Positions 33,286 to 48,072 of a stretch of 64,000 bases of DNA are shown in pieces. Under the pieces are notes generated by a model. That model saw nothing but the letters and a program-made list of their open reading frames with translations, did no database searches and had not been told where the DNA came from. The DNA lies in NCBI GenBank assembly GCA_000227505.4, contig AGIF02000001.1, positions 2,128,035 through 2,192,034 on the forward strand, in the 5' to 3' direction. The position numbers and the translations under genes are program-made. This DNA is from a gamma proteobacterium HIMB55. GTDB lineage: Bacteria; Pseudomonadota; Gammaproteobacteria; Pseudomonadales; Halieaceae. Position 1 is the stretch's first letter. Every line of letters begins with the position of its first letter.

Positions 33286-33472
33286 AAGTTTCACCTCAAG
33301 CTATGCGCAATAGTCTACGCGCTATTCAGTGCAATGTGACTGTGGGTGCGTGTCAGTGGTGAATTTTAATGCGATCTTGAGTGGCTCAAGCGCCCTCTAA
33401 AATGATCACCCACTGCGCCTTGACAGAGTCGCGCCGGTTAGCGATAAAGACTGTAAGCGATTGAGGCACAAC

Positions 33473-34009
33473 ATGATTGAATTTCTGAATCCAGACGCGG
33501 CGGTAGGTGTGGAGCAAACACCTTACAACCTATCAGTGGCTGTTGATGGTGATGCGCAGACAACGATTGGCCTGCTGGCTAACGGCTTTCCGGATTCTGT
33601 TGAGTTCCTGAACCAAGTGGGTGAGGCCGTTGCGCGTCGCCGGCCTGGCATCAATCTAAAGGCCTACAACAAAGGTAACGCCACCATTGCAGCACCAGAA
33701 AAACTTCTAGGTGAAATTGGTGGTGATTGCGTTGGCGTCATCGCCGCCTACGGGCACTGAGGCTCCTGCACTACCGGCACCGTGCGTGACGGCATAAACC
33801 TCGCAAAATTAGGTATCCCCGCAGTGGCTTTGGTCACTGAGGAGTTTTGGTCTCAAGGAAATTTTGTCGCCGAATCACTCGGCATGTCCGACGTACCGCG
33901 CGTTCAGTTACCGCACCCGGTAGCCGGCACCGGTGCTGAAAATATGACAGCGGTTGCTGACTCAGTGGCCGAGCAAATCCTGAACGCACTCGAGGCAAGT
34001 AGTGACTGA
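33473..34009 (+). CDS. UGSC-family selenoprotein with in-frame UGA (Sec96)
   Basis: A 178-residue protein read through one in-frame TGA at 33758-33760. The first part (95 codons) ends VGVIAAYGH, then TGA, then GSCTTGTVRDGINLAKLG and on to TAG/TGA at 34009. Both sides are coding in one frame and together match the UGSC family, whose named motif is U-G-S-C (or C-G-S-C). The UxxC layout resembles redox selenoproteins. The N-terminal strand TIGLLANGFPDS and later PRVQLPHPVAG are typical of the family. ATG 33473 has GAGG at 7 bases; TTG 33461 is an alternative. Downstream, GCAC (33768-33771) and GTGC (33782-33785) can pair as a candidate SECIS. Function is unknown; a reductase role is inference. 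Pseudogene by nonsense mutation is the main alternative. Confidence 0.88.
33758..33760 (+). other. In-frame UGA read as selenocysteine
   Basis: TGA within GGG CAC TGA GGC TCC TGC. The frame is open for 95 codons before and 82 after it with no frameshift, and the position is exactly where the family has U or C (U-G-S-C). No sel gene (selA, selB, selC, selD) is visible in this window, so decoding machinery must be elsewhere. Confidence 0.85.
33764..33792 (+). promoter_or_regulatory. Candidate bacterial SECIS hairpin
   Basis: Immediately 3' of the TGA, GCAC at 33768-33771 pairs with GTGC at 33782-33785 around a 10-base loop (TACCGGCACC), with a further wobble pair at the base. Bacterial SECIS elements lie in this interval. 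The stem is short and the loop does not show an obvious GU-bulge signature, so this is a weak structural call. Confidence 0.35.
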
Positions 34010-35069
34010 TATTCTCTCGGCACGTGACGAGGAAGCGGCGCTCGAGGAACTCCACCGTCTCGGGTGCACCGACGGTCTACCCGTTGTAATTCCAACCGCA
34101 GAACGCGTCTCCAGAATGGTTCTCGCTTCGGGGCTTGATGCGGACATGATGCTTGGAACAATGGGTCCGGGCCATGGTATTGCCACCGTTGAGAAAGTGG
34201 CCATTGCCGCAGTGATGGCTGGCTGTCTACCTGATTACATGCCGGTGGTTGTCGCTGCAGTCAAAGCCGTTATCGAACCTGAATTTGACCTGACTGAAAT
34301 GCAGGCAACCACGCACTGCACCGCGCCACTCATTATTGTGAATGGCCCAGCTCGCCATACTTGCGGTCCGATTGCCTCAGGCACAGGCGCTTTGGGACCA
34401 GGGCATCGTGCCAACGCGACGATTGGCCGCGCGCTCAGACTCACTATGATCAATATTGGTAAGGCGCGCCCCGGAAGTTCCGATATGGCGCTGCTGGGCC
34501 ATCCCGGAAAGTTCACTTTTTGCCTTGCCGAAGACGAAGAGAACAGCCCGTTCACGCCGCTTCACGTGAGCCGTGGCTTTGACGTTGAAGACAGTGTGGT
34601 CACCGTATTGGGCTCTGAAGCACCCCACTCGGTTATCTATGCGGGAGATGGCGATGATCCCAACAGCTATAAGGCACTTCTCGAACTTCTAGCGATGGGC
34701 TTAGCTAACCCGCCGAGTAATAACGGCACCCTCACCGGAGGCTGCGCAACCGTAGTTTTAAACCCCGAACACAGCGCAATACTGCATGGTGCAGGTCTCA
34801 CTCGAGAAGACATTGCTCAAGAGTTGTATGAGCGCAGCTTCGTTGAAGCGAGCATTGTGAAGCGGCTATTCAGCCAGTTCGCAGGACCTAATCCGCAGGA
34901 CCGAATGGCCTTCAAAGGCCCCGAGCAAATCCTGATTTTGCAGGCAGGCGGTTCGGGCGTTTACTCGATGGTTATGCCCTCGTGGTGTGTCGGCGCACAC
35001 GCCAACTCAGCGGTAAGCGTCAAGGTAGAGGCGGATATGTTCTGCGAGATTCCGGGTCTTGCTGGCTGA
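34002..35069 (+). CDS. Conserved partner of UGSC selenoprotein, function unknown
   Basis: A 355-residue soluble protein whose GTG start (34002) lies inside the UGSC gene, overlapping its last 8 bases, so the two are translationally coupled. Its beginning CTDGLPVVIPTAERV, then QATTHCTAPLIIVNGP, ALGPGHRANATIGRALRL and GHPGKFTFCLAEDEENSPF are blocks I associate with a family recurring next to UGSC proteins. Cysteines recur (C in GCTDGLP, THCTAP, RHTCGP, TFCLAE and GGCATVV) and could take part in redox or metal chemistry. There is no membrane segment. I assign no function. A joint enzyme or an electron-transfer partner of the selenoprotein is inference. Confidence 0.85.
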   Translation: MTDILSARDEEAALEELHRLGCTDGLPVVIPTAERVSRMVLASGLDADMMLGTMGPGHGIATVEKVAIAAVMAGCLPDYMPVVVAAVKAVIEPEFDLTEMQATTHCTAPLIIVNGPARHTCGPIASGTGALGPGHRANATIGRALRLTMINIGKARPGSSDMALLGHPGKFTFCLAEDEENSPFTPLHVSRGFDVEDSVVTVLGSEAPHSVIYAGDGDDPNSYKALLELLAMGLANPPSNNGTLTGGCATVVLNPEHSAILHGAGLTREDIAQELYERSFVEASIVKRLFSQFAGPNPQDRMAFKGPEQILILQAGGSGVYSMVMPSWCVGAHANSAVSVKVEADMFCEIPGLAG

Positions 35070-35102: not shown

Positions 35103-38100
35103 CTAACCTTCGCAGTTTTCTCCCTCGATTAGGGTGATATTCGCGAGCTCCACGGTGCCCGGTGACTCCGCCAAATCAAAGGCGAGTCGGCCGGTGATAT
35201 CAGTCCTGTCCACGGTCCAGGTTTGAGAAAAGGTTTGCCAGTCAGTAGTGACGTTTGAGGCAAACTTTTGATTCGCACCCAACAACTGATAGGCATCGGC
35301 CCCGCGATCAAGGTACGTGTAAATCCGCTTATCCAAAGAGCTCCTTGCCGAGAAACAGGCCGTATAGGTTCGATCCTTGTAAATGGGCACCCTGTGGAAT
35401 ACCTGCACGCGCCAGGGCTCTGGCTGGCTGGCGGTATCAACACTGGCGACGATCTTTCTGGTGGAACGCTCGCAACGAGCCGAACCATTAAACTCGGCAA
35501 ACTCCCAGCTACTGGAGGGTAAACCGCAGTCCATGAGATCACCGCGACTGGCTAAGATAGAACCCTCGCGTAACGAAGGTTCGACTTGCTCTGAGAAATA
35601 AAAAGAGTCGTTTGTAAACTTACCTAGCGGGTTCTGTAGCTGAATCTGGAAAAAACCGCCATGACTGGGCGCTTCCGACAGCACCACCTCAATCTGCTCG
35701 TCAACACAATTGGGTAACTCGCCGTTCATGCAGCTTACCGAGCCATCAACCAGCTCCCCATCTACGAAGATCTGAGCTCCTGGATAAATATGACGACCTC
35801 TCATCTCCAATCGATTAGTGTCATCCAGCTCCGCGACGTTCAGCGTGGCTGCTTGTGCTGCAATGGCCGCTTCGGGCCAAATACCGGGTTGAGGGTGAAG
35901 TGCTGTAACGTTTGCGGGTGGATGCGCTGTGATCAATGCTTGAAGCTCACCCCGCTCCCCGAGTTCTAAGAGTTGTTGGTCACTAAAACTTTCCCCTGAC
36001 TCCGCATCCGTGAACGATCGACTCTCGTAGTGCAGCTCTTGTGCCTCACCCGTGCCTGGCTTGATCATCGATACTCTCAATGCAACCGCTCCAGCATCGG
36101 CAGCGGACATCATGGCATCCAGTTTAGTGAGCTCAGGCGCGGATAAAGTGCTATCAGGAAGCACCGCGACTTGTGAACCCATAGCACCCACGTACCCAGT
36201 ACTGCCCTCGAGCACCATCCGCCAAATATTTTCACTTGATCCGGCCGCTCGCCATATTTGCCGCTCAGGAAAGTGGTCTGGGATAGTGAGGATCTGGAGA
36301 AGATCCGAGATATTCAGACGACCTTGAGGCAGAATCATCCAACGGTCATACGCGCCCCGCCAGGTCGGTGCATCCATGCCAGTTCCTGGCGTATTGGTGC
36401 TCACTAAAAACGGCATTCGGTGGCAGTTGCCACAGTCCTTCTCCATGTGAAACTGGAGCATCCCTTGAAAAGCAGACGGCGTTAAGCGATTGCTCTCCGT
36501 GCGTTCGGGTGGCGGTGGAAAGGGGACGGAAAGGTTAAACAGAGCCAGCGCTAAACGCTCGTCATCAGTCAGTTTACCCGCTCGCCCCGACGGTCCCTCC
36601 TCACACTCACCAACACCGCACATTGTCGAGCCAAGTGTGCGATCCACGAGAACCAGAGAGCAATCTAAGGCCACACCGCTTTCGCAATCAGGCGCCAGAG
36701 AACTATTGATATTAGCTGTGTTATTACCACCATGCGGATCACCCATGACGCCATCCCAGTGGTAAGGGGCTGTATCTCTGAGTCCGCGCATAGGCATAGT
36801 CAGTCGCGGCTGTATTTGCGTACATCCGGCCACATCACAAATGGGCGTATCTAATACCCAAAGCAGCTGATCGGTATTGCCATCGATATGACAACTCGCA
36901 CATGAGAATGTGCCGGTGCTTGACGCCTTTGCTGACTCAAAGAGATGTCTGCCTGCCGCAATTTCGCTGGGCGTCGGATCGTCGAGAGCGATGGCTGCCT
37001 GCAGTGCCAGTGACCCACCACTTAACGACACAACGCTTACAGTCGAATCGCTCGCGTTATATACCCACGCCTCATCACTACCTCTCAGAGTGATACCACG
37101 CGGTGTAGCACCCACAACCAGACGATCCTTAATATCCCCCGAGGCTGTATCCAGCCAAAAAACAGTGTCAGAGGCTGCGGCAATACCAAGCAAGCCATCC
37201 TGTTCGGGGAGAACCACTGTGTCATATGGGGTGGCGAGTGCCCTATCAGCCGCTGGCTGAGTGGGCGGCCTTGGCTCCAACTCATAACGCCGGCGCGTCT
37301 CAGGAAGGCAGCCCTCGGCCCCCGAACAATCGACCCGGGTGATTTGGTTAAAAAACGGCCTATTTTCAAGCTCGGCAAGCCCATGCTGTTGTGAGCCGGC
37401 ACGACCATTGGCCGCATTTCTTGAGTCGGTCTGAGCAATGTAAGCAACACCAGAAGCATCTACAGATAGGCCATAGAGCAGCGTTCCTAAGTGGTTAACC
37501 GACTGAAGGCGCTGTTCGTTCTCCGTGCTGTAAACGATCAAGTCCCTATCCGGGAGATCGGTGTTGCGAACAATGTCCGCTGTGTAGTTAAGAGAGAGGA
37601 CATTGTTGTTATTGAAGACATGCTCCACCGCATCAAAGGTGCAGACGTCGCCATCAATGCCATCCGATGTACAACCAGAGAGCTGGGTTTGGTTGTTCGA
37701 TTCAAAGGGCAGCACAAGCAACTTATCACCTACAACTGCAATAGCTCTGGGATCCTGAGCGGGAACGCGAAGGAGCTTAGTCACTTGATATGTCGTCGCA
37801 TCGACGACTGCAATTTGATTCGTCTGAGACAGCGCCACGTACGCTTTCTCATTGTTTGCAAAGGCAATACCCGCGGGCTCATCAAAAATTGACTCACCCA
37901 GCGGCAGATCAAGATGATCTATGACGGCAGTTACCGTGTGTACAAAGGGTGAGTCCGCTGAAGCGTCGATGACATTCACGCTGTCAGAAACATGGTTACT
38001 AACCCATATCTCACTGCTGTCTGGCCTTGCGGCCAAACTCATTGGCTCCAAGCCAACCTCAATTTGTTGAACAACCAACCGAGTGTCCGCATCTATAACA

Positions 38101-38435
38101 TCAACTGTCCCGTTGGGTGTGTTTGTCACGTAGACATACGGCCCTAACGCAAGAATGGGATTGACGTGGGGGCTCATAAAAAGCTGGAAACCCGGCTGGC
38201 TTCTATCGGTAGAGTCAGCAGCGATCAATCGCTGATTTAGCTCGAGGTCAGTTTCGAGGGGACCACGTTCGGGAGGCTCGCCGCCCCCCGAAGAGCCGCC
38301 ACCCGAACTGGGCGGTGGTGTAGTGACAACCGGTGCAGGAGTTGAAGAAGAAGAGGAGCCGCCTCCGCCGCCACAAGCGGAGAGAAAGACGGATAAAAAA
38401 ATCCATAGTAATAACGCACGATTTATTGTTTTCAT
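35103..38435 (-). CDS. Lipoprotein: YVTN beta-propeller, di-haem cytochrome c, carbohydrate-binding-like C terminus
   Basis: A 1110-residue lipoprotein. The signal ends in LSAC with the lipidated C21, followed by a Gly/Ser/Pro linker (residues about 22-55). Residues about 85-490 are a YVTN/YncE-like propeller (GPYVYVTNTPNGTVDVIDAD). Two haem-binding motifs follow: CASCH at residues 512-516 and CGNCH at 668-672, in a di-haem peroxidase/cytochrome-like part. After residue about 930 there is a jelly-roll module like CBM4/9. Likely site is the outer envelope, facing outward or the periplasm. It may oxidise or sense a substrate; the role is unknown. It is a single-gene unit, convergent with the selenoprotein operon. 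Confidence 0.88.
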   Translation of the reverse strand: MKTINRALLLWIFLSVFLSACGGGGGSSSSSTPAPVVTTPPPSSGGGSSGGGEPPERGPLETDLELNQRLIAADSTDRSQPGFQLFMSPHVNPILALGPYVYVTNTPNGTVDVIDADTRLVVQQIEVGLEPMSLAARPDSSEIWVSNHVSDSVNVIDASADSPFVHTVTAVIDHLDLPLGESIFDEPAGIAFANNEKAYVALSQTNQIAVVDATTYQVTKLLRVPAQDPRAIAVVGDKLLVLPFESNNQTQLSGCTSDGIDGDVCTFDAVEHVFNNNNVLSLNYTADIVRNTDLPDRDLIVYSTENEQRLQSVNHLGTLLYGLSVDASGVAYIAQTDSRNAANGRAGSQQHGLAELENRPFFNQITRVDCSGAEGCLPETRRRYELEPRPPTQPAADRALATPYDTVVLPEQDGLLGIAAASDTVFWLDTASGDIKDRLVVGATPRGITLRGSDEAWVYNASDSTVSVVSLSGGSLALQAAIALDDPTPSEIAAGRHLFESAKASSTGTFSCASCHIDGNTDQLLWVLDTPICDVAGCTQIQPRLTMPMRGLRDTAPYHWDGVMGDPHGGNNTANINSSLAPDCESGVALDCSLVLVDRTLGSTMCGVGECEEGPSGRAGKLTDDERLALALFNLSVPFPPPPERTESNRLTPSAFQGMLQFHMEKDCGNCHRMPFLVSTNTPGTGMDAPTWRGAYDRWMILPQGRLNISDLLQILTIPDHFPERQIWRAAGSSENIWRMVLEGSTGYVGAMGSQVAVLPDSTLSAPELTKLDAMMSAADAGAVALRVSMIKPGTGEAQELHYESRSFTDAESGESFSDQQLLELGERGELQALITAHPPANVTALHPQPGIWPEAAIAAQAATLNVAELDDTNRLEMRGRHIYPGAQIFVDGELVDGSVSCMNGELPNCVDEQIEVVLSEAPSHGGFFQIQLQNPLGKFTNDSFYFSEQVEPSLREGSILASRGDLMDCGLPSSSWEFAEFNGSARCERSTRKIVASVDTASQPEPWRVQVFHRVPIYKDRTYTACFSARSSLDKRIYTYLDRGADAYQLLGANQKFASNVTTDWQTFSQTWTVDRTDITGRLAFDLAESPGTVELANITLIEGENCEG

Positions 38436-43859: not shown

Positions 43860-46106
43860 TCAGGCCACAGCCTCGATTCTTGCCGGCACAAACTTGTGGT
43901 GTGGCGTGCCTGCGAACTTATCGCAGTCGGCAAGTGACGTGAGTTCATTGGGAGCAACACCCGAGCGCGTGCCATCCTCATTATCCAAGCCAAAGCCGTT
44001 CGGTATCGCAACATGGCCCGGCAACATTCGGTCGGTCACCTCGACACGCACCATCGCAGACCCAACTGCAGTAACAAGCCGCGCCTGGTCGCCCGTTTCA
44101 ATGCCAAGGCTTTCAGCATCGGCCGGGTTAATTCGCATGGAACCGTCGGGGTCTTTTCGGCGCCAGCCGAAGTCACGATAAATCGTGTTTGCGGTGTAGT
44201 CGCGACGCTCGCCCGCGCTCAAGGCAAATGGGAACTCTGACGTTGACCGATCAACTGGACCCGCCTCGAGGACATTGAGCTCCTCGAGTAAGCTGGGCAG
44301 CACTAACTGTATGCCACCCTCGCTACCAAGACGCTCCCAAGCGGTCGACATATCGTCGCGGGAGAACACAACACCGGAGTGGCCCGCAATGATCGCGTCA
44401 AAGAGCTTATCGGCTTGTGTGATGGGGTCACCCTCATAACCTGCACGCGCCAGGCTCGCGCTGTCACGCATCGCGAAGCCGAGCGTTAGCGGCCACATCA
44501 CGGCGCCTTCTTTTGCGCCCTCAGGCAGTACTTCGCCCAGGGTGCGGTAAAGAATCACAGGCGCTAACTTAGAAACCATGCCGTCCTCAGCCATCGCCTG
44601 CATAAACCGTTCGCGGAAGGCGGCACGTCCACCGTCTTTCAACAAGCCACGCAGTTCATCGACCAACTCGGTCGGCATAACGCCTGCAGCCTCGATCAGC
44701 CGCGCATGAATCTCAGCTTCAGAAAGCGATTCTCCGAGAGGTTCGAAAAGTGGCTTTCGAAGGTGGAAGTAATTCTCAGGGAATTCGAAGTTGAAGAACG
44801 TTGCCTCCCATTTCTCAAACTGCGTGGAGGCAGGCAATACGTAATCCGCCGCACGCGCTGTTTCTGTCATCGCAATGTCGATCGCGACCACCAACTCCAT
44901 CGAACGAAGTGCCTCACGCATACGATTACTGTCGGCCAAAGAATGCACGGGGTTAGCCGACTCGATAAGCATGGCTCGGTAGCGATCTGGGTGATCGGTC
45001 AAAATCTCATCGGCAATAACGTTACAAGGAATCATGCCGCTGATGATCGGCGCCTTCACAACTGGCGACTTACGCGAGCTGCGGCCGCTTCCCGCAATAT
45101 TCTGCAAGTAAGCGGGTACATATTGACCGCCTTCCTTACCGAAATGCCCACACAAGACCCAAACCAATTTTTCGAGGTAACTGATCAGCGTTGAGTGGTG
45201 GTTCATTTGAACCCCCAAGTCCTCGAACATGGCCATGCCTTTGGCGTTCGCAATGGCGTCTACAGCCTTACTGACCTCTTCAACCGTGAGGCCTGCATGT
45301 GCGCAGTAGTCGGCGACCGAAATCGAGCCAAACGCCTTTTTAATATCCGCAATACCTTGGGTGTGCTCATCGACCCAAGCTGCTGCATAGCGCTCATCCT
45401 GAACCAGCATGGCCACCATCGCTGCCAGCATCCATGCATCGGTGCCGGGCTTCACTCGCAGGTGAATATCGGCCATTTTCGCCGTCTCGGTGACCACCGG
45501 ATCCACGACAATCATGGTCTTACTCGGATCCTTCGCAAAATCGCGCAGGAATACACGCGCTCTGGGTATGCCGTGCGTTTGCCAGGGGTTCTTACCTAAG
45601 AAGAACGCGACGTCGCAGTGGTGGAAGTCACCTTTAACCATGGACCCAAACATTTGTCCGTTGACCCAGAACTCACCCGTCTTTTCCTGCGCCAGGGCAC
45701 TCGAGCGGTAGACGCTTCCCAGCACAGAACGAGTTGCACTCGAGTAGGCGCCAGGCAAGTGATTTCCCTGGCCACCGCCACCGTAGTAAAAGATTTTATC
45801 GCCGCCGTGGGTGTCGCGAACCGCCGCAAAGCGCTCCATGATCTCGCGAGTGGCTGTATCCCAATCGATTGCTTCGAAGGAGCCGTCTGGTTTGCGTCGC
45901 AAGGGAGAGGTAATCCGGTCTTTTCCGTTTTGATAGCGGTTCAGGCCTGATGCTTTTTGGCAAAGATAGCCCTGTGAAGCAGGATGATCTTCGTCGCCTC
46001 GAATGCGCACGATCTCTCGATCGTTCTCGCCACCAGTCTGAACTTTAATACCGCAGTTCAGCTCACAAAGGATGCACGCACTGGTCATCCATTCTTCGTT
46101 AGACAT
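43860..46106 (-). CDS. Molybdopterin-dependent oxidoreductase (formate-dehydrogenase-like), no obvious Mo-ligand Cys
   Basis: A 748-residue bis-molybdopterin enzyme. The [4Fe-4S] ligands are C11, C14, C18 and C49 (ACILCELNCG and GYLCQKAS). The Moco-binding blocks FFLGKNPWQTHGIPRAR, VDPVVTETAKMADIHLRVKPGTD and the C-terminal ILPGHVAIPNGFG-like region are typical of the DMSO-reductase family. The segment expected to carry the Mo ligand (Ser, Cys or Sec) reads SSALAQEKTGEFWV (residues 135-148), with no Cys or Sec; see findings. It lacks a Tat signal, so it is cytoplasmic. The start has AGGAGATG upstream. Electron partners are not seen nearby. Substrate unknown. Confidence 0.9.
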   Translation of the reverse strand: MSNEEWMTSACILCELNCGIKVQTGGENDREIVRIRGDEDHPASQGYLCQKASGLNRYQNGKDRITSPLRRKPDGSFEAIDWDTATREIMERFAAVRDTHGGDKIFYYGGGGQGNHLPGAYSSATRSVLGSVYRSSALAQEKTGEFWVNGQMFGSMVKGDFHHCDVAFFLGKNPWQTHGIPRARVFLRDFAKDPSKTMIVVDPVVTETAKMADIHLRVKPGTDAWMLAAMVAMLVQDERYAAAWVDEHTQGIADIKKAFGSISVADYCAHAGLTVEEVSKAVDAIANAKGMAMFEDLGVQMNHHSTLISYLEKLVWVLCGHFGKEGGQYVPAYLQNIAGSGRSSRKSPVVKAPIISGMIPCNVIADEILTDHPDRYRAMLIESANPVHSLADSNRMREALRSMELVVAIDIAMTETARAADYVLPASTQFEKWEATFFNFEFPENYFHLRKPLFEPLGESLSEAEIHARLIEAAGVMPTELVDELRGLLKDGGRAAFRERFMQAMAEDGMVSKLAPVILYRTLGEVLPEGAKEGAVMWPLTLGFAMRDSASLARAGYEGDPITQADKLFDAIIAGHSGVVFSRDDMSTAWERLGSEGGIQLVLPSLLEELNVLEAGPVDRSTSEFPFALSAGERRDYTANTIYRDFGWRRKDPDGSMRINPADAESLGIETGDQARLVTAVGSAMVRVEVTDRMLPGHVAIPNGFGLDNEDGTRSGVAPNELTSLADCDKFAGTPHHKFVPARIEAVA

Positions 46107-46824: not shown

Positions 46825-48072
46825 CTAATCGCTATCAGCAATCGGATTCGCTGCTTTCACGTAATCACCGTCGCGATCGATTGCCCAATTCCCCGTCGAG
46901 CGCTTGAGTTGCTCGCGCGATGCGATAACGCGGACAAACGGATGATTCGGATCTTGCGCTTCGAAATGCGCGACGTAATAAACAATCAATTCACCGAGCA
47001 GCGTGTCTTCGAAAATCACAGAGTCTGAATACCCGGCCTCGTAATCACCCGGTTGTGCGGTAATAGCTTCTGAGTAAAAGGCTTTTAAATCCTCGAGCGC
47101 GAGCTTAAGCCAAGTAGGATCGGGGAAGTCTACCGAAGCGTTGTCAGGCCAAGCTGATAGTCCCACAACGATTTCCTCAAGCGAGGACTCACTAATACCC
47201 ACCGTCGTTCTACCCCGTCGTTTGAGACCGAGTTCGTACCAAGGGCCAAGCGCCGTCACCTCTCGCTTAAGCCGTCCGTACCATGACTTATCATTGCTTT
47301 TACGCTGAAAACTCACAGGACACGCAGGCGGCGGAAGATCGGCATCAGGAAGATCCACGGGATAGTCAGCCAGTACTGGTCCCTCGGGCTCATCAAGAAG
47401 CGACAGTGCCGTCTCAATAACCGCAGACTGAAAGTCAGCATCGCCCGGCTTTCCAAGCGGTCGACCCAAAGGAAAACTAACCCATAAAATCCGCGGCGGC
47501 TTCATCGACTCCGCGATTTCGCGAAATAGCGCAATGCCCGTTGCTTGGATGCCCTCTGACTCCAGGTAATAAGAGAGCCCACAAACGGTTCTCGAACAGT
47601 TAGGACATACCGGCAAAACCAATACCGCGTCGACACCATCAGCTTTAAGAAGCTTCGCCAAATCCCGCGCGCTGTCTTCGTAGACATCGGGCAGCATGCC
47701 GCCGCCCATAAAACTGTAATTAATGGAAGCAACTGAGCCTATAGCGCCGCTGGCTTCCAACTCCTTTAGGCGATCGATAGGAAATACAACATTGATATCT
47801 TCTTGAAAGCCACTGCGGTCGTAATTTACCGACGTGTGAGTCATCAAAATATCTTTCGTTGCGAGCTCACGCGGTAAAGCGCGGTAGCCCGCATCGACAA
47901 AATCGAATTTGCGGTCTTCTCTGAAATTGAGACCCGCCGTTGTCACGATCGCAATGCGTTTTTGAGCGAGTGGCTTGGTGTTAACCACCCAAGGAAGTGC
48001 TCCCATCGGTGGCAACAGCTTACTCATCAGGTGATTGCGTTCGTACTCAGGAATATCAGCGAGCCTTACCAT
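46825..48072 (-). CDS. GrdB/PrdB-like protein (glycine/D-proline reductase selenoprotein B family), Cys form
   Basis: A 415-residue protein related to selenoprotein B of glycine/sarcosine/betaine and D-proline reductases. Blocks are IAIVTTAGLNFREDRKFDF, THTSVNYDRSGFQEDINVVFPIDRLKEL, IGSVASINYSFMGGG and VLVLPVCPNCSRTVC, where the family has a UxxC or CxxC redox site: here C156 and C159, with C164. About 180 residues of C-terminal sequence follow that I do not recognise. Members reduce a substrate in a complex with PrdA/GrdE proteins or work in unknown ways. No partner subunit is nearby. Start ATG 48072 has AGGTTGAG upstream. The Cys form does not require selenium. Confidence 0.85.
   Translation of the reverse strand: MVRLADIPEYERNHLMSKLLPPMGALPWVVNTKPLAQKRIAIVTTAGLNFREDRKFDFVDAGYRALPRELATKDILMTHTSVNYDRSGFQEDINVVFPIDRLKELEASGAIGSVASINYSFMGGGMLPDVYEDSARDLAKLLKADGVDAVLVLPVCPNCSRTVCGLSYYLESEGIQATGIALFREIAESMKPPRILWVSFPLGRPLGKPGDADFQSAVIETALSLLDEPEGPVLADYPVDLPDADLPPPACPVSFQRKSNDKSWYGRLKREVTALGPWYELGLKRRGRTTVGISESSLEEIVVGLSAWPDNASVDFPDPTWLKLALEDLKAFYSEAITAQPGDYEAGYSDSVIFEDTLLGELIVYYVAHFEAQDPNHPFVRVIASREQLKRSTGNWAIDRDGDYVKAANPIADSD

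Follow-up and report, generated by a model that had tools for sequence, protein, structure and literature searches.

The locus described here raises the question of whether a reading frame interrupted by a TGA codon is a single gene and, if so, what its product does. The DNA analyzed (hereafter, the window) is a 64,000-nucleotide stretch from the gamma proteobacterium HIMB55, a member of the Halieaceae, and the gene in question occupies positions 33473-34009 of its forward strand. An earlier note on this DNA had described it as a UGSC-family selenoprotein gene in which the TGA encodes selenocysteine (Sec) at residue 96. Re-reading of the sequence confirmed the codon counts, the position of the TGA, its GH-TGA-GSC setting and the ribosome site given there. 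From the ATG at 33473, 95 sense codons lead to the TGA at 33758-33760, and a further 82 lead in the same frame to the stop TGA at 34007-34009; the GAGG at 33463-33466 (+), 6 bases 5' of the ATG, is by eye the likely ribosome site. The predicted product is 178 amino acids long, with Sec96 in the context G-H-U-G-S-C.

We compared the joined frame with family models. It matched PF24696 with 138.9 bits over residues 20-174 (gathering cut-off 25), bearing out the assignment to the UGSC family, and the portions before and after the TGA scored 30.8 and 87.5 bits, respectively, when taken alone. Since both halves matched the family separately, the read-through frame is more than chance. The motif required of family members (U/C-G-S-C) is present as U96-G-S-C99, and the protein shares with the family (PF24696/NF041046, the 'UGSC-containing protein' of the Global Ocean Sampling [GOS] set) its length and its Sec/cysteine (Cys) site. 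It differs in scoring 107.7 bits against the equivalog model NF041046 (UGSC_fam), below the curated cut-off of 125, which was passed by 4 of 5 Cys-type plasmid members tested; the window protein is thus a somewhat divergent member. The gene was the only PF24696 match in its own genome, searched as one contig of 2,736,988 bases. As anticipated for standard gene calling, the list of open reading frames of at least 90 amino acids included 33461-33760 but had no entry for the part of the gene after the TGA. Two TGA-bearing, Sec-type UGSC genes on plasmids (L145, Acidovorax T1 IncP; L206, Paracoccus ferrooxidans) appear in their records as short hypothetical proteins, cut off or split at the TGA.

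We examined residue 96 among homologues, collected in two locus sets that share some genomes. Of 109 rows, the window included, 3 were cut off by contig ends; 105 of the 106 readable rows carried TGA at this site, and the remaining row TGC. Counted as 94 distinct proteins, 89 had TGA, 1 had TGC, 3 were truncated and 1 had Ns beside its TGA. This conservation excludes, for practical purposes, the read error at 33758-33760 that the earlier note had named as a refuting outcome. More distant members, from haloarchaea, Roseovarius, Arthrobacter, Variovorax and some Halieaceae-family genomes, had Cys, so that position 96 was U or C with few exceptions: two fused proteins (L200 and L201) carry DMGTS at the motif site, and a Neorhizobium protein (L144) has a shifted HCSTC in place of U/C-G-S-C. 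A quick tree of 106 UGSC sequences, among which 98 rows were Sec and 6 were Cys, requires at least 4 exchanges between Sec and Cys when read without regard to support values.

In the available text of PMC1088965, the bacterial selenocysteine insertion sequence (SECIS) element is a hairpin that directly follows the UGA and whose small apical loop contains a G. Such a hairpin, which the earlier note had not mentioned, was found at 33774-33792 (+), of the form CCG-G-CAC(CGUGC)GUG-A-CGG, and its loop, CGUGC, starts 20 nt 3' of the UGA and has G as its second base. The fold energy (-8.1 kcal/mol over 36 nt counted from the UGA) is modest on its own, and a 59-nt stretch at this site folded no better than shuffles. 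GGC ACC GTG CGT GAC (codons +6 to +10, 33776-33790) was the same in all 73 distinct 63-base sequences of the main clade, which by record title span Gammaproteobacteria, Acidimicrobiia and a deltaproteobacterium; in the same set, Gly, Ser, Thr and Ala residues that are likewise invariant, at -2, +1, +2, +4 and +15, each used four synonymous codons. One UGSC row that was too short and one with Ns were left out of this count, and five divergent hairpins were counted apart. Because L048-L127 were found via the partner gene described below, and L019-L047 via a protein profile, these codons were not selected for.

Covariation within the main-clade hairpin was assessed in 20 of 51 distinct 39-mers (set A3). 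All cells were paired. Five of the six pairs never vary and are thus uninformative, while pair 18-34, outside the five invariant codons, changes from C-G to U-A in 5 of 20 sequences and to U-G in 1 of 20. The number of two-sided changed cells and the covariation score were above those of 500 of 500 shuffles, and the count of pairs changed on both sides (one) was reached by 435 of 500. Distant clades have a different, 8-bp hairpin in the same register, with a three-base loop starting GU. In 10 distinct divergent sequences (set A4, from which the L022/L023 variants were excluded and chance TGA matches in L144, L147 and L205 were dropped), 98.8% of cells were paired and covariation was 0.225, compared to 0.064 in shuffles (0 of 500 reached it); two pairs were changed on both sides, a count reached by 40 of 500 shuffles. 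Placed 15 bases after a TGA, with one mismatch allowed, the SECIS core was found in 2 of 274 genomes of the class: in the HIMB55 gene itself and in a second genome (G230), where the match is again a UGSC gene with its partner.

We next turned to the Sec machinery. All four sel genes sought were present in the HIMB55 genome with scores above their cut-offs (selA, 580.6 bits; selB, 389.7; tRNA-Sec [selC], 72.5; selD, 405.8); selB lies directly 3' of selA, tRNA-Sec just downstream, and selD elsewhere. Among 140 genomes of the family, PF24696 was matched in 50 and exceeded its cut-off in 46. selA was found in 36 of 40 genomes with a TGA-bearing UGSC gene compared to 13 of 100 others (Fisher p 4e-18, which overstates the significance, as these genomes share ancestry and some are incomplete), and in 1 of the 5 genomes with Cys-type UGSC only (G045, G112, G113, G119 and G126). 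In two genomes, selA lies 0.6 kb (G009) and 1.0 kb (G115) from the UGSC gene and its partner, and on the Paracoccus ferrooxidans plasmid selB lies ~3 kb from UGSC. Taken together, these findings provide good support, at the level of sequence, for the view that a single gene spans 33473-34009 and that its in-frame UGA encodes Sec96, as the earlier note had proposed on the strength of its frame and motif; none of the outcomes named there as refuting was found.

With respect to what this protein does, the available literature passages on UGSC as a selenoprotein give no biochemical function, in line with the earlier note's remark that it is unsettled. We compared profiles. When an alignment of 106 UGSC sequences was compared by hhalign with 21 rows of GrdB/PrdB, the selenoprotein B subunits of the glycine/betaine/sarcosine and D-proline reductases, the match had a probability of 93.2, a pairwise E of 2.9e-7 and a score of 54.4 over 111 columns; it placed Sec on Sec and extended to the PHP segment near the C-terminal end. 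Scores of the controls were at most 24.2 for 40 column shuffles, 23.7 for the reversed profile and 23.8 for the best of 25 unrelated families, and a second set, nine rows assembled in another way out of those records, gave 93.5. An ungapped pattern, U-G-[ST]-C-T-x13-G-I, is common to the window protein and 5 of 6 distinct GrdB-type proteins; in 3 of these 6, the next residue is P. Some other UGSC members matched GrdB/PrdB models weakly (E 0.02 to 0.16), across the Sec region. The AlphaFold2 model of the UGSC protein (mean predicted local distance difference test score, 89.7) consists of five alternating strand-helix units, and its fold-match lists were filled by flavodoxin-like and other three-layer chains; with regard to a thioredoxin topology, the lack of any one family among these matches carries no weight. 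These comparisons suggest that UGSC is a distant relative, rather than a member, of the group formed by GrdB/GrdF/GrdH (of glycine, sarcosine and betaine reductase) and PrdB (of D-proline reductase; models TIGR01917, TIGR01918, TIGR04483 and PF07355), with a remotely homologous catalytic domain, an aligned Sec and a C-terminal PHP segment in common. Unlike GrdB/PrdB, UGSC is a single domain of 178 amino acids.

A PrdB-like gene also lies in the window, 12 kb from the UGSC gene, at 46825-48072 (-). Its 415-amino acid product matches PF07355 (GrdB) with 39.2 bits and has a CPNC motif, and its relatives L134-L137 have one in-frame TGA each; judging by these sequences, it is the Cys form of a PrdB-like family, which was found in 8 of 369 genomes of the class, HIMB55 included.

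The gene that follows UGSC, at 34002-35069 (+), starts within the last 8 bases of the UGSC gene and encodes a 355-amino acid protein with conserved Cys75 and Cys174, each present in 117 of 122 such partners. The window partner matched nothing in Pfam and NCBIfam, and a Pfam scan of 58 members gave no family that was shared consistently; its chance-level rows covered no more than 2 members apiece. (The set of the window's closer UGSC relatives, A1, comprises 55 of 75 listed sequences, and A2 58 of 80, with the window included.) UGSC and partner adjoin in 109 of 111 loci, and the two exceptions have the partner at the end of a contig; UGSC precedes the partner in 103 loci and follows it in 6. 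Among 38 additional loci, profiles recognized both genes in 35, two of which (L164 and L165) have a UGSC fragment only. The remaining three were L166, L200 and L203, and in L200 UGSC was found by Pfam in the same chain as the partner. The two are indeed joined in one chain in Variovorax boronicumulans (L205; UGSC part, 103.1 bits) and, with weak UGSC scores, in Sporomusa (L200; 28.3 bits) and Vibrio europaeus (L201; 24.9 bits, cut-off 25). Four haloarchaeal loci (L143, L202, L204 and L209) have the order partner-UGSC-partner, which suggests a three-chain complex. In its available passages, the GOS paper (PMC2398784) reports a conserved domain, 'Unknown_1', fused to UGSC in some records; the 355-amino acid partner resembles it in fusing to UGSC and, going by that description, is possibly the same domain. 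As side observations, aconitase X and DUF126 genes lie near both the Sporomusa and the Vibrio europaeus fusions, and a partner 61% identical to that of the window was found on a contig titled Klebsiella pneumoniae (L113, a metagenome-assembled genome), probably a mislabelled bin.

We also surveyed the genes surrounding the pair. In 4 of 8 plasmid loci (L142-L149), a trxB-like gene on the same strand occurs no more than 2 kb away: it adjoins the pair in L144, L146 and L147, in the last of these together with trxA, and in L148 it lies two genes upstream. A disulfide-reductase-type flavoprotein is encoded upstream in L205, and a trxB-like frame lies 2-3 kb off in L204 (other strand) and L209. Among grd regions, 3 of 6 have a trxB-like gene, recognized by eye, so that trxB stands near some loci of both GrdB-type systems and UGSC. 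Seven annotated plasmid loci (L142-L148) include solute-binding proteins of the tripartite tricarboxylate or tripartite ATP-independent periplasmic transporter type (TTT/TRAP) in 5 and coenzyme A (CoA) transferases in 3, and Acidimicrobiia loci have genes for short-chain dehydrogenase/reductases and cytochrome P450 (by eye), as well as MaoC and nitrile-hydratase-alpha genes, nearby. These neighbors suggest catabolism of a carboxylate or CoA ester, and indicate no particular substrate. By clustering, of which one member was Pfam-scanned, a nitrile hydratase alpha chain lies ~2 kb before the pair in 15 loci (e.g., L089, 1785-2420 [-]). Elsewhere in the window, 43860-46106 (-) encodes a molybdopterin oxidoreductase with no in-frame TGA, and 35103-38435 (-), as judged by eye, a large protein that combines CxxCH haem-type motifs with a propeller-like repeat part.

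We consider it reasonably probable that UGSC and its partner form a two-subunit reductase related to GrdB/PrdB, in which a Sec nucleophile recharged by thiols acts on a carboxylate-type substrate, the chemistry and the substrate being what we infer. In this model SelB, guided by the hairpin at 33774-33792, would insert Sec at UGA 33758-33760, a step well supported by sequence. Profile comparison and structural model predict that the product consists of one domain, flavodoxin-like in fold and homologous to the GrdB/PrdB catalytic domain, with Sec96 just before the helix that follows a strand. Their conserved adjacency and fusions point to a complex between UGSC and the co-encoded 355-amino acid protein, which may hold a small carboxylate-type substrate. 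The Sec96 selenolate would attack a carbon adjacent to a leaving group, the resulting seleno-ether would be resolved by Cys99 as a selenenyl-sulfide, and a dithiol system, possibly thioredoxin and thioredoxin reductase in several lineages, would reduce it again; recharging by thioredoxin may also apply in HIMB55 itself. The substituent would thus be removed reductively, as by glycine or proline reductase, probably without a pyruvoyl cofactor. For the related enzymes, the accessible passages of PMC3091704 propose that PrdB acts by Sec attack followed by resolution by Cys, and give thioredoxin reductase, thioredoxin and GrdA as the electron route to GrdB.

Several results weigh against this model. 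With A1, the hhalign match was weaker (60.7, E 8e-5); against the larger set A1 gave 39.2, and against nine PrdB-like sequences (that at 46825-48072 and its relatives) no match. The window UGSC protein matched none of the GrdB/PrdB models (TIGR01917, TIGR01918 and TIGR04483) up to E 10, and unrelated models match other UGSC members at E-values similar to those of the weak GrdB/PrdB matches. Whereas the partner of GrdB/PrdB is a pyruvoyl proprotein, GrdE/PrdA, no likeness to it was detected for the UGSC partner: 122 partners compared with 10 GrdE/PrdA/PrdD-type frames gave 0.2% and no similarity, although a very remote relation is possible, and a fold search with the partner yielded no clear match. 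Both Cys75 and Cys174 are gone in the same five partners (L150-L154), whose UGSC has Cys in place of Sec. Finally, trxB was near the pair in 0 of 20 Halieaceae-family loci (L150-L169), and in L048-L127 (80 loci, many with short flanks) it was seen in 5, at a distance of 1.5 to 4.7 kb and on the other strand.

We weighed these findings under other explanations. UGSC may be a general selenoprotein with a thioredoxin-like fold, as proposed in the 2008 GOS paper, that reduces thiol:disulfide or peroxide substrates, with the partner as its substrate or accessory. UxxC is a common redox motif in the thioredoxin-like context of the accessible part of that paper, and the reference list of PMC3091704, as far as available, contains a title on peroxidase activity of GrdB, so that a side activity of this kind could occur; as an account of the main function, we regard this as unlikely. 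Somewhat less likely still is that catalysis belongs to the partner, with UGSC as no more than its electron donor, which might for instance reduce a disulfide between Cys75 and Cys174 of the partner. The retention of these two residues in most partners and their joint loss where UGSC is Cys-type favor such a role, but L150-L154 look like one group, and the joint loss may therefore be a single event; moreover, PrdB, a relative of UGSC, is itself proposed to attack the substrate in the passages of PMC3091704 cited above.

It could also be argued that the TGA at 33758 truly ends translation, results from a sequencing error or marks a pseudogene, given that gene callers would stop there and that the protein falls short of the NF041046 cut-off. 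The TGA is present in 89 distinct proteins, however, and it is accompanied by a SECIS, a full Sec machinery and a frame that remains intact beyond it, leaving this explanation refuted in practice and with scarcely any probability.

The UGSC family itself is already known: in the available passages, 255 Sec forms are reported for the GOS set (PMC2398784), a later survey gives UGSC as 8.2% of selenoprotein genes, and the fold is described no further than 'likely Trx-like' (thioredoxin-like). A link between UGSC and GrdB is absent from the available literature passages on UGSC selenoproteins, among which subscription journals are mostly uncovered, so that it may be stated elsewhere.

UGSC occurs in marine bacteria that are presumably aerobic, and GrdB/PrdB in amino-acid fermenters. 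More tentatively than the two-subunit model itself, and with somewhat more doubt than confidence, we propose that UGSC and its partner are the equivalent, in the aerobic world, of the Stickland-type selenoenzymes: a pyruvoyl-free pair of subunits in which Sec would displace a substituent from a small carboxylate or CoA ester, widespread in marine bacteria, with a Cys form in haloarchaea and soil bacteria and a SECIS core kept letter for letter across phyla. UGSC ranks among the most frequent selenoproteins of ocean surveys, as far as their available passages go, and its genes are missed by annotation, as on the Acidovorax T1 and Paracoccus ferrooxidans plasmids. The link to GrdB/PrdB offers, as hypotheses, a definite chemistry for the family together with a second subunit and an electron donor and, if true, would extend a reductase class of amino-acid-fermenting anaerobes to marine bacteria that presumably live aerobically.
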